Shown here: positions 26,572 to 31,142 of the stretch, piece after piece | Layout of the letters: each line of letters starts with the position of its first letter | How positions within the stretch are numbered: the stretch's first letter is position 1 | Source of the DNA: a virus | Virus record (IMG/VR): IMGVR_UViG_3300048440_000240 | Location: 1 to 35,028 of that record | Reading direction: 5' to 3' (one strand) | Length of the DNA: 35,028 nt | Position numbers and translations under genes: made by a program | The notes under the pieces: generated by a model | The model's database searches: none | Told to the model about the DNA's origin: nothing | What the model saw: the letters and a program-made list of their open reading frames with translations, nothing else

Positions 26572-27159
26572 ATGGGATCACACGCAGAGGATTGCAGTAG
26601 TTTAATAAGATTTATGGATAGCATGGATTCAAAAATTGAGCGGATGAGCAATACGCCAATTGTTGACATATCACACAATCTAAAAACAAAAAAAGCGGCA
26701 GCCATTAAAAAGCAAAAAGAGGACACCGCAAAAGCGCTTAAAGCGGCGATGGCGTTTGATTTTTCTAAAGTCAAAAAAAATAAAAAGCCATTTGTTAAAA
26801 AAGTATTCGTCGCTGGCATGACATCGACTAAAAAAGCCGCGCTTTTAAAAAAAGTCATTGCTTTGCATAAAGCAAGCACGCCATTAAATGATATAGCCGA
26901 AAATCTAAAAATTAACAAACAGACGGCCCGCATGTATTTGCTGAGATCAGGTCACAAGCCAATTCGGAGCGTAAAAATTACAAAAGGGATGCAAGATAAA
27001 GTTAATCTTGCTATTAAATATCACAAGCAGGGCATTCCATTGTGCGACATCGTGCAAAAAGTAAAAATTGATAAAAGAACCGCCAAACGGTATTTAATAA
27101 AAGCCGGGCACAATCCAATTCTAAAAAAGCGCGGTCCAGAAAAAAAAGGGTCAAAGTGA
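26572..27159 (+). CDS. Tandem helix-turn-helix DNA-binding protein
   Basis: 195 aa. Residues 89-130 (AALLKKVIALHKASTPLNDIAENLKINKQTARMYLLRSGHKPI) and 140-182 (MQDKVNLAIKYHKQGIPLCDIVQKVKIDKRTAKRYLIKAGHNPI) are two copies of the same HTH unit about 50 residues apart. They resemble HTH modules of resolvases and transposase-like regulators. The tail is basic (KKRGPEKKGSK). Its stop (27157-27159) overlaps the GTG of the methyltransferase gene and lies next to the ATG of the embedded ORF, so it may couple both. Role likely transcription control; substrate unknown. Confidence 0.7.
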   Translation: MGSHAEDCSSLIRFMDSMDSKIERMSNTPIVDISHNLKTKKAAAIKKQKEDTAKALKAAMAFDFSKVKKNKKPFVKKVFVAGMTSTKKAALLKKVIALHKASTPLNDIAENLKINKQTARMYLLRSGHKPIRSVKITKGMQDKVNLAIKYHKQGIPLCDIVQKVKIDKRTAKRYLIKAGHNPILKKRGPEKKGSK

Positions 27160-28115
27160 ATGAGTTACATTTATTTGCAGGAGCAGGGGGAGGAATTCTC
27201 GGCGGACAGTTACTTGGACATATCACAGTCTGTGCTGTTGAAATTGAAAAATACCCAAGACAAGTATTATTGCAGCGACAACGAGACGGAATCTTGCCAA
27301 AGTTTCCAATCTGGGACGACGTTTGCACATTCGACGGTAGACCGTGGAGAGGAACAGTTGACGTTTTGGCAGGAGGATTCCCATGCCAAGACATTAGTGC
27401 AGCAGGTAAAGGAGCAGGAATTGCCGGAGCACGTTCGGGATTGTGGAAAGAGTATGCGCGAATTATTGACGAAATACGGCCTCGCTTTGTCTTTGCCGAA
27501 AACTCACCATTGCTTCGCACTAGGGGACTTAGAGTTGTCCTCGAAGATTTGGCCGCGCTGGGGTATGATGCTCGATGGTGCGTGCTGGGAGCTAGGGATG
27601 TCGGTGCGCCCCATAAAAGAGATCGAATGTGGGTCTTGGCTTACTCCAACTGTGCAAGACAGCAGCAAGGCAACAAAACGATGGAGAGAGAATTTTCAGA
27701 ACAACTTAACCGCTCAAATTTTAACGCCGAGCAAATGGCCAACGCCATGCACAAGGGATTACAAAGGGATAAATGCACCAGAAGGACTTATCCGCAAGGA
27801 CGGCAAGAGTCGAATGGATCAACTTCCGAATGCAGTGGCTTATGGTGGCAGCAAGATCCAGCAGACTTACCCGACTCCGAGATGTTTTATGCACAAAGAT
27901 GCTCTGAAGGATCGGGGGAAGTCAAACTTAGGGGAAGTGATAAACGAAAAAGAGCAAATGACGAAAACGGGCCAACTAAACCCTGCGTGGGTCGAGTGGC
28001 TAATGGGGTGGCCAATAGGGTGGACAGACTTAAAGCCATTGGAAACGGACAAGTACCGCAATGTGCAGCAATGGCATTCAGAATTTTATCAAAAGGACTA
28101 ATATGCGGAAAATAG
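27156..28115 (+). CDS. dcm: C5-cytosine DNA methyltransferase
   Basis: 319 aa, GTG start. Motif I LHLFAGAGGG (4-13), motif IV with the catalytic cysteine GGFPCQDIS (73-81), motif VI FAENS (113-117), motif VIII APHKRDRMWVLA (151-162), and motif X GRVANGVANRVDRLKAIGNGQVPQ (279-302), so the enzyme looks complete. It would transfer a methyl group from AdoMet to C5 of cytosine, protecting phage DNA from host restriction. The stretch between VIII and X (target recognition) is polar and low in hydrophobic residues. A second gene (27160-28101) lies wholly inside it in the +1 frame. It overlaps the resolvase start by 13 bp. Confidence 0.92.
   Translation: MNELHLFAGAGGGILGGQLLGHITVCAVEIEKYPRQVLLQRQRDGILPKFPIWDDVCTFDGRPWRGTVDVLAGGFPCQDISAAGKGAGIAGARSGLWKEYARIIDEIRPRFVFAENSPLLRTRGLRVVLEDLAALGYDARWCVLGARDVGAPHKRDRMWVLAYSNCARQQQGNKTMEREFSEQLNRSNFNAEQMANAMHKGLQRDKCTRRTYPQGRQESNGSTSECSGLWWQQDPADLPDSEMFYAQRCSEGSGEVKLRGSDKRKRANDENGPTKPCVGRVANGVANRVDRLKAIGNGQVPQCAAMAFRILSKGLICGK
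27160..28101 (+). CDS. Embedded +1-frame protein of the LNPxWVEWLMGxPxGWTDL family, 313 aa
   Basis: ATG at 27160, 4 nt after the methyltransferase GTG, sharing the AAGGG ribosome site at 27146-27150. It runs 313 codons without a stop inside dcm. Motifs known to me from phage proteins annotated as hypothetical or methylase-associated: THHCFALGDL...WPRWGMMLDGACWEL (115-145), SWLTPTVQD (159-167), KWPTPCTRDYKG (192-203), YPTPRCF (237-243), SNLGEVIN (255-262), GQLNPAWVEWLMGWPIG (271-287). The motifs at residue 280 onward equal the shifted reading of dcm motif X. Function unknown; perhaps a partner or specificity factor of the methyltransferase. Confidence 0.75.
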   Translation: MSYIYLQEQGEEFSADSYLDISQSVLLKLKNTQDKYYCSDNETESCQSFQSGTTFAHSTVDRGEEQLTFWQEDSHAKTLVQQVKEQELPEHVRDCGKSMRELLTKYGLALSLPKTHHCFALGDLELSSKIWPRWGMMLDGACWELGMSVRPIKEIECGSWLTPTVQDSSKATKRWRENFQNNLTAQILTPSKWPTPCTRDYKGINAPEGLIRKDGKSRMDQLPNAVAYGGSKIQQTYPTPRCFMHKDALKDRGKSNLGEVINEKEQMTKTGQLNPAWVEWLMGWPIGWTDLKPLETDKYRNVQQWHSEFYQKD

Positions 28116-28597
28116 GAATAGACACCGGGAAGCATGGCGGCATTGTCGCGCTGAACTCGAACAATGCCATTATTGGCAAATGGGTCATGCCATTAGACCA
28201 AGGCGGCGAAATAGACCTGAAATCGATTGATGTCATATTCAAAGGATTCAGGCCGTCGGTTTACGGCGATGCGATTGTCACGATTGAGGATCCGGGAAAG
28301 CACGCAAAAAGCAGCCAAGCAATCGGCGGCATGCGGTACGGATTCGGGATAGTCAAACAAGCGTGCGTCTCAAATGGCATAAGTTTCCACACAACCAGCA
28401 GCCGCGTTTGGCAGTCCTATTATTGGACTAATCGAGACGACAAAACGACAAAAGAGAAAGCGCTTGAAGTAGCATACGACATATGGCCGGATGAAACATT
28501 TTTACATCCAGGCAAACCGCGCAGCAGAAAGGCGCATGATGGCTTAGTGGATGCCGCACTGATTGCGCTTTATGGGATAACTTGGATATATGATTAA
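28103..28597 (+). CDS. RuvC-like Holliday junction resolvase
   Basis: 164 aa from ATG 28103; the longer in-frame start at 28061 would lie deep in the overlapping pair. RNase H fold motifs: IGIDTGKHGGIVAL with D7, TIEDPGKHAKSSQAIGGMRYGFGIV with E62, and RKAHDGLVDAALIALYG with D146 and D150. This fits phage RuvC-like nucleases that cut four-way junctions before packaging. It overlaps the methyltransferase end by 13 bp. Confidence 0.85.
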   Translation: MRKIGIDTGKHGGIVALNSNNAIIGKWVMPLDQGGEIDLKSIDVIFKGFRPSVYGDAIVTIEDPGKHAKSSQAIGGMRYGFGIVKQACVSNGISFHTTSSRVWQSYYWTNRDDKTTKEKALEVAYDIWPDETFLHPGKPRSRKAHDGLVDAALIALYGITWIYD

Positions 28598-28946: not shown

Positions 28947-31142
28947 ATGAAATACGAAACATTTATAAAACAGAAAAACAAACAATCAGATAATTATGGA
29001 TTTGATCCATTGCCACTTATTGCGCCATTATTTGATTGGCAAAAGCACATTTTACAATGGGCAGTAAGAAAAGGCCGATGCGCATTGTTTGAAGATTGCG
29101 GACTTGGCAAAACTGTACAGCAATTAGAATGGGCATCGCAGGTATTTAGAAAAACTGGCGGCAGCGTCTTAATTTTAGCACCGCTTGCTGTTGGCGAGCA
29201 GACTAGAATGGAAGGTAAAAAATTTGGTATAGATATTAAAGTTATAGCATCTGACGATGAAATTAATCAGCCTGGCATTTACATTACTAATTATGAAAAA
29301 TTAGATCATTTTGATTGTTCAATATTTGCCGGAGTAGTACTAGACGAAAGCTCAATACTTAAAAGCTTTACAGGTAAAACAAGGAAAGCATTGACTGCAT
29401 ATTTTAAAGATACTCCTTACAGGTTATGTTGCACTGCGACACCATCGCCCAATGATTACACAGAACTAGGACAGCACGCAGATTTTTTAAGCATTTGCAC
29501 ACCGGCTCAAATGCTTTGCACGTATTTTATTAATGACACATTCAATACAGGGGATTGGAGACTTAAAAAACATGCAGAAGATGAATTTTGGCAATGGCTA
29601 GCATCATGGGCTGCATGTGTATCAAAGCCATCCGATTTAGGATATCCGGACGATGCATACAATTTGCCAAAGTTGCACATGAATGATATTACTGTAAAAG
29701 TTGATCAATCCAAAGAAACAGGCGATGATTTATTTAGAATTGCGACATTGAGCGCAACAACTATGCATAAAGAAATGCGTATAACTGCACCAGCTAGATG
29801 CGATGCAGTTGCTAACATGGTTAACAATTCAAATGAATCTTGGATTGTATGGTGCAATACAAATCTGGAATCAGATGAACTTAAAAAACGCATAATTGAT
29901 GCAGTTGAAGTAAAAGGTAGCGACAAGCCATCTGTTAAACAAACAAGATTGTCAGATTTTACACAAGGCAAAGTCCGTGTAATTATAACAAAGCCAAGCA
30001 TTGCAGGATTTGGATTAAATTGGCAACACTGCAACAATGTAGCATTTGTTGGATTGAGTTATTCATTTGAGGATTTTTATCAAGCTTTGCGTCGATCTTA
30101 TAGGTTTGGACAAAAAAAAGAAGTAAATGCTTACATCGTGCAAGCCGAGACTGAAGGAGCAATTATTCAATCAATAAAACGAAAAATCAAACAGCATGAA
30201 ACAATGCAACAATCTATGAAAAAAGCAGCTGCAGAACTAAAAAACGAAAAAACTGAATCAATTAACGCTAAGACAAATATTGATTTGTATGAAGGCAACG
30301 GATGGAAAGTATATCATGGCGATTGCGTTCGGGTAGCACGCGAAAAAATAGCAGATCAATCAATCGGTTTTTCTATATTTTCTCCACCATTTGCAGATTT
30401 ATTTACATATTCAGCGGATCCGCAAGATATGGGAAATTGTAAAGATATGGATGAGTTTATGAAGCATTTTGATTATTTGATTGCTGAAATTAAACGCATA
30501 ATGATACCAGGCAGAGAAGTTGCAGTTCATTGCGTTGATTTACTATCTACAAAATGGAAGCATGGAAGCATTCAATTGCAGGATTTTTCTGGCGAAATAA
30601 TACGCGCATTTTGGAACCATGGCTTTTTGTTTCATTCAAGGATTACAATTTGGAAATCGCCAGTTACTGAAATGCAACGAACTAAAGCTCATGGATTGCT
30701 TTACAAAACATTAAAAAAAGATAGCTCATCGAGTAGAGTCGGAGTGCCAGACTATTTGCTAGTTTTTAGAGCACCAGGAGAAAGCAAAATACCTGTCACA
30801 AAATCGCCAGACGATTATAGCGTTGATTGGTGGCAAGAAGTAGCATCTCCAGTTTGGATGACAGTAGATCAAGGGCGGGTATTAAATAAAAATGGAGCTA
30901 GGGATCACGCAGATGAAAAGCATATTTGCCCACTACAATTAGACGTAATTGAGCGAGGTATTGAGTTGTGGAGTAATCCTGATGATTTAGTATATAGTCC
31001 TTTTACTGGAATTGGATCAGAAGGGGATGGCGCTTTGTCATTAGGTCGTCAATTTGTTGGCAGTGAGTTAAAAAAAAGCTACGCAAAACAAGCTGCTGAT
31101 AATTTGAAAAACATTAATGCACAAACGACATTAAACATTTAG
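28947..31142 (+). CDS. SNF2-like helicase fused to an N4/N6-type DNA methyltransferase
   Basis: 731 aa. The N-terminal ~420 residues are an SF2/SNF2 helicase: Walker A FEDCGLGKT (48-56), Walker B VVLDESS (130-136), CTATPSPND (162-170), late motifs KPSIAGFGLNWQHCNN and YQALRRSYRFGQKKEVNAY. The C-terminal part has the permuted (beta-class) amino-methyltransferase order: FSPPF (478-482, the catalytic SPP[FWY] form usual for N4-cytosine enzymes), then AdoMet motif YSPFTGIGSEG (about 682-692). Such fusions occur in phages and may methylate while translocating. The whole gene is AT-rich with TTA and AAT codons, unlike its neighbours, suggesting recent transfer. Confidence 0.85.
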   Translation: MKYETFIKQKNKQSDNYGFDPLPLIAPLFDWQKHILQWAVRKGRCALFEDCGLGKTVQQLEWASQVFRKTGGSVLILAPLAVGEQTRMEGKKFGIDIKVIASDDEINQPGIYITNYEKLDHFDCSIFAGVVLDESSILKSFTGKTRKALTAYFKDTPYRLCCTATPSPNDYTELGQHADFLSICTPAQMLCTYFINDTFNTGDWRLKKHAEDEFWQWLASWAACVSKPSDLGYPDDAYNLPKLHMNDITVKVDQSKETGDDLFRIATLSATTMHKEMRITAPARCDAVANMVNNSNESWIVWCNTNLESDELKKRIIDAVEVKGSDKPSVKQTRLSDFTQGKVRVIITKPSIAGFGLNWQHCNNVAFVGLSYSFEDFYQALRRSYRFGQKKEVNAYIVQAETEGAIIQSIKRKIKQHETMQQSMKKAAAELKNEKTESINAKTNIDLYEGNGWKVYHGDCVRVAREKIADQSIGFSIFSPPFADLFTYSADPQDMGNCKDMDEFMKHFDYLIAEIKRIMIPGREVAVHCVDLLSTKWKHGSIQLQDFSGEIIRAFWNHGFLFHSRITIWKSPVTEMQRTKAHGLLYKTLKKDSSSSRVGVPDYLLVFRAPGESKIPVTKSPDDYSVDWWQEVASPVWMTVDQGRVLNKNGARDHADEKHICPLQLDVIERGIELWSNPDDLVYSPFTGIGSEGDGALSLGRQFVGSELKKSYAKQAADNLKNINAQTTLNI

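Follow-up and report, generated by a model that had tools for sequence, protein, structure and literature searches.

Two overlapping reading frames of one phage gene probably encode the two subunits of a C5-cytosine DNA methyltransferase

A phage gene was found whose two overlapping reading frames very probably encode both subunits of a two-polypeptide C5-cytosine DNA methyltransferase. It lies in an IMG/VR virus record; the window, i.e., the whole stretch of DNA that was analyzed, comprises 35,028 bases. The anatomy of the gene, its conservation, the hand-over of conservation from one frame to the other, the selection for an open second frame and the distribution of the arrangement were all observed in the sequences. 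The larger ORF was designated alpha and the ORF nested within it, in the +1 frame, beta. The following features were identified:

27156..27162, plus strand: twin start GTGAATG, with the alpha GTG at 27156 and the beta ATG at 27160 (4 nt apart).
27156..28115, plus strand: alpha, C5-cytosine methyltransferase ORF with a GTG start, 319 aa, containing motifs I-VIII and X.
27160..28101, plus strand: beta, +1-frame ORF nested in alpha, with an ATG start, 313 aa, containing the putative target-recognition region and the putative motif IX.
27550..27573, plus strand: beta WPRWGMML opposite alpha LAALGYDA, doubly constrained (alpha four-fold divergence 0.27 versus 0.43-0.69 in the other bins).
27640..27969, plus strand: putative target-recognition region, beta residues 161-270; beta third positions are most variable at 161-230 and the alpha reading is filler.
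27976..28026, plus strand: putative beta motif IX (hallmark), LNPAWVEWLMGWPIGWT; conservation is beta-driven in 63 distinct loci that were not chosen by the hallmark, and a profile matches single-chain enzymes.
28023..28058, plus strand: alpha motif X, DRLKAIGNGQVP; conservation is alpha-driven.

The alpha protein matched PF00145 in Pfam (1.7e-34) and resembled M.HhaI and M.HaeIII both by sequence and by fold, the fold comparison being made on an AF2 model. The catalytic PCQ and ENS as well as the cofactor motifs were present in alpha, and the residues G74, P76, C77, E115, and N116 were invariant in 77 rows. However, the motifs I-X that characterize PF00145 are not all in one chain, since motif IX was assigned to beta and motif X to alpha. 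The AF2 model of alpha was confident at residues 1-165 and in the motif X helix, and of low confidence for most of 199-295. For beta, no match near the cut-off was obtained in Pfam or NCBIfam, and a sequence search of the PDB gave no meaningful match. Beta matched PHROG 1008 (DNA methyltransferase) with 7e-23 over profile positions 33-282, and the alpha motif X matched positions 293-319 of the same profile weakly (0.014). Modeled alone by AF2, beta gave a poor structure (mean pLDDT 54.8), and a small-domain fold was not supported by this model. Downstream, a Holliday junction resolvase-like gene (28094-28597; PHROG 1770, 5e-21) overlaps the end of alpha, and 28947-31142 encodes a 731-aa protein in which one chain carries SNF2/helicase domains and, behind them, an N6/N4 DNA methylase domain.

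The initial annotation had proposed that the protein family carrying the hallmark LNPxWVEWLMGWPxGWT is mostly encoded inside dcm genes. A search with the DNA pattern WLMGxPxGW returned at least 120 viral and at least 118 cellular loci. In viruses the proposal was borne out: among the matches listed, 113 of 120 loci had a methyltransferase in the -1 frame, 104 of them with an alpha catalytic ORF spanning the hallmark and the other 9 with motif X in that frame, mostly cut by a contig end. The seven viral exceptions among these matches (L015, L026, L036, L040, L049, L073, and L116) had motif X in the same frame as the hallmark or were split. In cellular genomes the proposal held only in part, the overlap being found in 55 of the 118 loci listed. 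Seventeen of these 118 had no hallmark context and look like chance matches, and the 101 listed loci in context comprised 55 overlaps, 42 loci with motif X in the same frame (28 of them single chains, the remainder split or cut) and 4 that were unplaced. Among the matches listed, some of which were cut or unplaced, none was clearly a hallmark gene standing alone with no methyltransferase parts in its vicinity. The pairing of hallmark and methyltransferase is far beyond chance. At three loci (L026, L036, and L143) motif X was read in the frame of the hallmark and not in that of alpha, which suggests that motif X may have moved between frames. On a Bacteroides fragilis plasmid (L341) and a Halotia branconii plasmid (L342), the +1 frame of dcm reads a motif-IX-like string, by which the overlap reaches Bacteroidota and cyanobacteria.

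In the window, the reading of 27996-28046 in two frames was confirmed: alpha reads VANGVANRVDRLKAIGN and, one base on, beta reads WLMGWPIGWTDLKPLET. Thus, the alpha frame from 27996 gives VANGVANRV followed by DRLKAIGN, and the beta frame from 27997 gives WLMGWPIGW followed by TDLKPLET. The hallmark had been regarded as motif X read in the shifted frame. The pairing on the same DNA stands, whereas the exact register does not, as the hallmark precedes motif X: WLMGWPIGW (27997-28023) lies opposite alpha VANGVANRV, immediately before motif X, and it is TDLKPLET that corresponds in the +1 frame to motif X proper (DRLKAIGN). In 95 of the 120 viral loci listed, the distance from the W codon to the GN downstream, read in the -1 (alpha) frame, was exactly 44 nt.

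It had also been argued that a fixed motif X makes the hallmark invariant; on this view the hallmark would be the passive shadow that motif X casts in the +1 frame, and overprinting of dcm genes would have created the beta family de novo. The occurrence of hallmark and methyltransferase on the same DNA in the 113 of 120 viral loci listed speaks for this, as does the fact that some other beta strings are indeed shadows of alpha motifs: beta AKT, KT, and WGMM are the +1 readings of alpha PCQ, ENS, and LGYDA, and beta DLKPLE likewise is the +1 reading of an alpha motif. Two canonical enzymes, L338 and L339, have strings like AKT, KT, and WGMM in their +1 frames as well, and these frames are closed by stops. 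Against this explanation stands the frame in which the hallmark is conserved. A hallmark-blind sample was assembled by searching viral sequences with alpha residues 1-170 only; 80 loci were kept, of which 76 were usable and 63 distinct around motif X. In these 63 alpha-selected loci, beta was conserved from -66 to -18 nt before the alpha GN (P in 62, E in 60, M in 61, W in 58, and T in 55 loci) with third codon positions free in most beta codons, and the alpha residues varied over the hallmark (e.g., D in 24, N in 18, and H in 17 loci at -39). From -15 on, alpha was fixed (R, G, N, and Q in 63/63) and its wobble positions were free, the alpha-driven conservation beginning at DRLKAIGN. When the alpha proteins were held fixed and their synonymous codons resampled, 0.04 hallmark matches were expected in the 63 loci versus 46 seen, and the mean frequency of the major beta residue over -66 to -18 was 0.76 versus 0.27 expected. 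Furthermore, 10 viral overlap loci among the matches listed kept the hallmark with a motif X that was displaced from +44 to positions between +59 and +146, mostly clear of the hallmark, and in at least 28 single-chain enzymes the hallmark was followed in its own frame by motif X, about 70-80 nt further on. The beta-frame conservation, the resampling and the presence of the hallmark both with a displaced motif X and in single-chain enzymes contradict an invariance imposed by motif X and indicate that the hallmark is selected in its own right. The origin of the hallmark as a shadow of motif X was refuted by the frame of conservation and by resampling, and the shadow explanation as a whole, including overprinting, is extremely improbable. 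A de novo origin of the hallmark is unlikely because it matches motif IX of ordinary methyltransferases.

The hallmark is best read as motif IX, because of its place, its profile match and the Pfam coverage of the single-chain enzyme L185. A hallmark profile matched single-chain actinobacterial enzymes with 1.1e-9 over 38 columns. In L185, residues 24-368 aligned with positions 3-312 of the 324 positions of PF00145, spanning its hallmark, and the protein matched PHROG 1008 at profile positions 159-315. The hallmark was also compared with the canonical letters of motif IX. The hallmark was degenerate in some relatives: 30 untruncated alpha-selected loci gave no match to the first regular expression. 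A loss of beta in these loci was considered and dropped, because an altered but still recognizable motif IX stands at the usual distance in most of them, and the beta profile found a match in their +1 frame. A short alpha (<270 aa) was observed in 40 of the 76 usable loci (among L245-L324), leaving little room for a recognition region in beta; motif IX was altered more often in these, the regular expression matching 14 of 40 versus 33 of 36 loci with a long alpha.

The driving frame was then followed along the whole gene. This along-gene profile was used in place of whole-domain four-fold divergence against 14 single-chain controls, which differ in base composition; as it was computed partly on hallmark-selected loci, the claim on the hallmark itself rests on the alpha-selected set. 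Over beta residues 1-158, alpha drives conservation in this profile, and beta residues 1-130 showed little constraint apart from staying open. Over beta residues 161-230, in the putative target-recognition region, beta drives: 0.61-0.68 of its third positions were variable, and alpha identity was 0.15-0.19 with one bin at 0.35. The bins of beta 231-260 held few pairs and had no clear driving frame, residues 271-290 were beta-driven again, and from 291 alpha (motif X) drives. The last hand-over, from motif IX to motif X, was also present in the alpha-selected set. The low confidence of the AF2 model of alpha for most of 199-295 agrees with this profile of frame hand-over.

The position of the beta start was compared in the 80 alpha-selected loci. 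Relative to the alpha start, a beta ATG was located at +4 in 45 loci, at -5 in 23 and at -2 in 1, whereas in 9 loci no beta ATG was nearby, several having it at +16, and for 2 the rule applied gave no alpha start; MNELHLFA was among the peptide patterns behind this set, which favors the +4 form. The +4 twin start is also present in the cultured Salmonella phage S9-5 and Acinetobacter phage ABMM1. The 93 hallmark-selected viral overlap loci among the matches listed comprised 49 with a full-length beta, 33 of them with the ATG at +4, and 44 in which the beta frame begins inside alpha. The latter loci raise the question of whether beta starts inside alpha in the window as well, the open frame upstream of that start having another cause, and it fits such a start that clear beta constraint within the catalytic stretch was seen only near residue 131. 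However, the ATG is fixed at +4 or -5, and in 75 of 76 alpha-selected relatives no stop interrupts the +1 frame within the catalytic domain. The expected probability of such an open frame per locus was 0.004-0.006 from pooled codon use and 0.025-0.045 from within-gene shuffling; the loci are related and their counts not independent, so that these per-locus figures are not joint probabilities. In the +2 frame of alpha, stops occurred as expected. None of 117 neighbor genes had an open +1 frame over the same length, and their +1 stops numbered 7.31 observed versus 7.42 expected. An internal start of beta in the window is therefore considered unlikely. The gene upstream (26572-27159; 195 aa, weak helix-turn-helix matches) lies in the frame of beta; its stop codon TGA (27157-27159) overlaps the alpha GTG and directly abuts the beta ATG, so that reinitiation would be possible at either start.

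According to the two-subunit model, alpha would supply the catalytic large domain (motifs I-VIII) as well as the closing helix of motif X, and a loop of low model confidence would take the place where the recognition domain normally sits. Beta would supply the missing part, namely the target-recognition region and motif IX. As both starts lie at one site, neighboring initiation at GTG 27156 and ATG 27160 on one mRNA could yield both subunits, which would assemble into one enzyme. On the DNA, the order I-VIII, TRD, IX, X would be that of an ordinary methyltransferase and the frame alone would change, passing into beta once motif VIII is complete and returning to the alpha frame between IX and X. 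The hallmark would be conserved because it is motif IX, and the alpha reading VANGVANRV would be its passive echo. Translation of both frames, formation of a heterodimer, methylation activity, sequence specificity and the protection of phage DNA from restriction are predictions of this model. The motif order on the DNA is equally that of one chain, which ribosomes might produce by shifting from alpha to beta after motif VIII and back again before motif X. Such a product needs two shifts, leaves unexplained both the ATG fixed beside the alpha start and the open +1 frame upstream of the TRD, and differs from M.EcoHK31I, which is reported as two polypeptides (PMC3404938). We consider this double frameshift very unlikely, more so than an internal start.

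In the M.EcoHK31I (YGGCCR) system, the beta gene lies in an alternative frame inside the alpha gene. PMC3404938 places motifs I-VIII and X of this enzyme on the larger subunit and motif IX on the smaller one, a plan that was also found in the phage gene, and a 1995 title cited there states that both polypeptides are required for methylation. The predicted TRD of M.EcoHK31I was placed in alpha in the published description (PMC3404938) on which this comparison is based, whereas in the phage gene beta drives residues 161-230; moreover, the starts of alpha and beta are 4 nt apart in the phage gene, and beta extends over its full length. M.AquI is likewise a C5-methyltransferase naturally split into two polypeptides, but as described in PMC3404938 its small subunit has motif IX as well as motif X, while motif X of the phage gene is in the alpha frame. 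In Paenibacillus phage Likha (gp51/gp52) and Escherichia phage fTaEco01 (TE1_031/TE1_032), a second methyltransferase CDS containing the hallmark is annotated in the +1 frame inside the first; these beta genes start internally (+184 and +88, respectively) with no twin start, and the records state no mechanism. Single-chain actinobacterial C5-methyltransferases (e.g., L185) have the same hallmark before motif X and a full PF00145 domain, but in one chain and one frame, unlike alpha and beta. No description of the twin-start form was found in the literature searched, which covered few subscription journals. The two-polypeptide plan of C5-methyltransferases is known; the full-length form with a twin start appears to be new.

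For a phylogenetic tree, the initial 178 rows were reduced to 94, two rows with long branches were left out and three canonical phage enzymes served as the outgroup. In the free quick tree, the actinobacterial single-chain enzymes fell within the overlap group, with mixed support; the likelihood was better (p-AU 0.921) when the single-chain, canonical and actinobacterial split rows were constrained to group together. A single origin of the overlap from a single-chain ancestor was not rejected.

The annotation of 17 phage and plasmid regions was inspected. In 14 of them the alpha CDS was annotated, with the hallmark in its +1 frame; the remaining ones were L327, where beta is the only CDS, Mycobacterium phage Peaches, where the gene is split, and L335, which gave no match to the regular expression. 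Counting both annotated beta CDSs and the +1 frames of methyltransferase genes, the hallmark was present in 15 of the 17 regions, and beta itself was annotated in three only (L332, L333, and L327). In Pseudomonas phage VB_PaD_phPA-G (L327), beta is listed as a hypothetical protein and there is no methyltransferase CDS at this place. In Vibrio phage 1.091.O (L325), the overlap gene is followed after about 1 kb by another C-5 methylase gene.

The gene may represent a widespread and mostly unannotated class of phage and prophage genes, dual-coding over their full length, in which starts 4 nt apart behind one ribosome site would give two proteins of about 310 residues with coupled subunit supply, and in which the functional load would pass between the frames with a hand-over from motif IX to motif X about 1-2 codons wide; for this general statement we regard the chances as evenly balanced. 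Through this finding, an invariant signature that had been puzzling leads to a claim that can be tested, namely that many phage dcm genes encode two subunits of which annotation usually lists one. Alpha cloned alone is predicted to be inactive or to lack specificity. The gene permits a stretch-by-stretch measurement of which frame is constrained, and it could show whether neighboring starts set the stoichiometry of the subunits.
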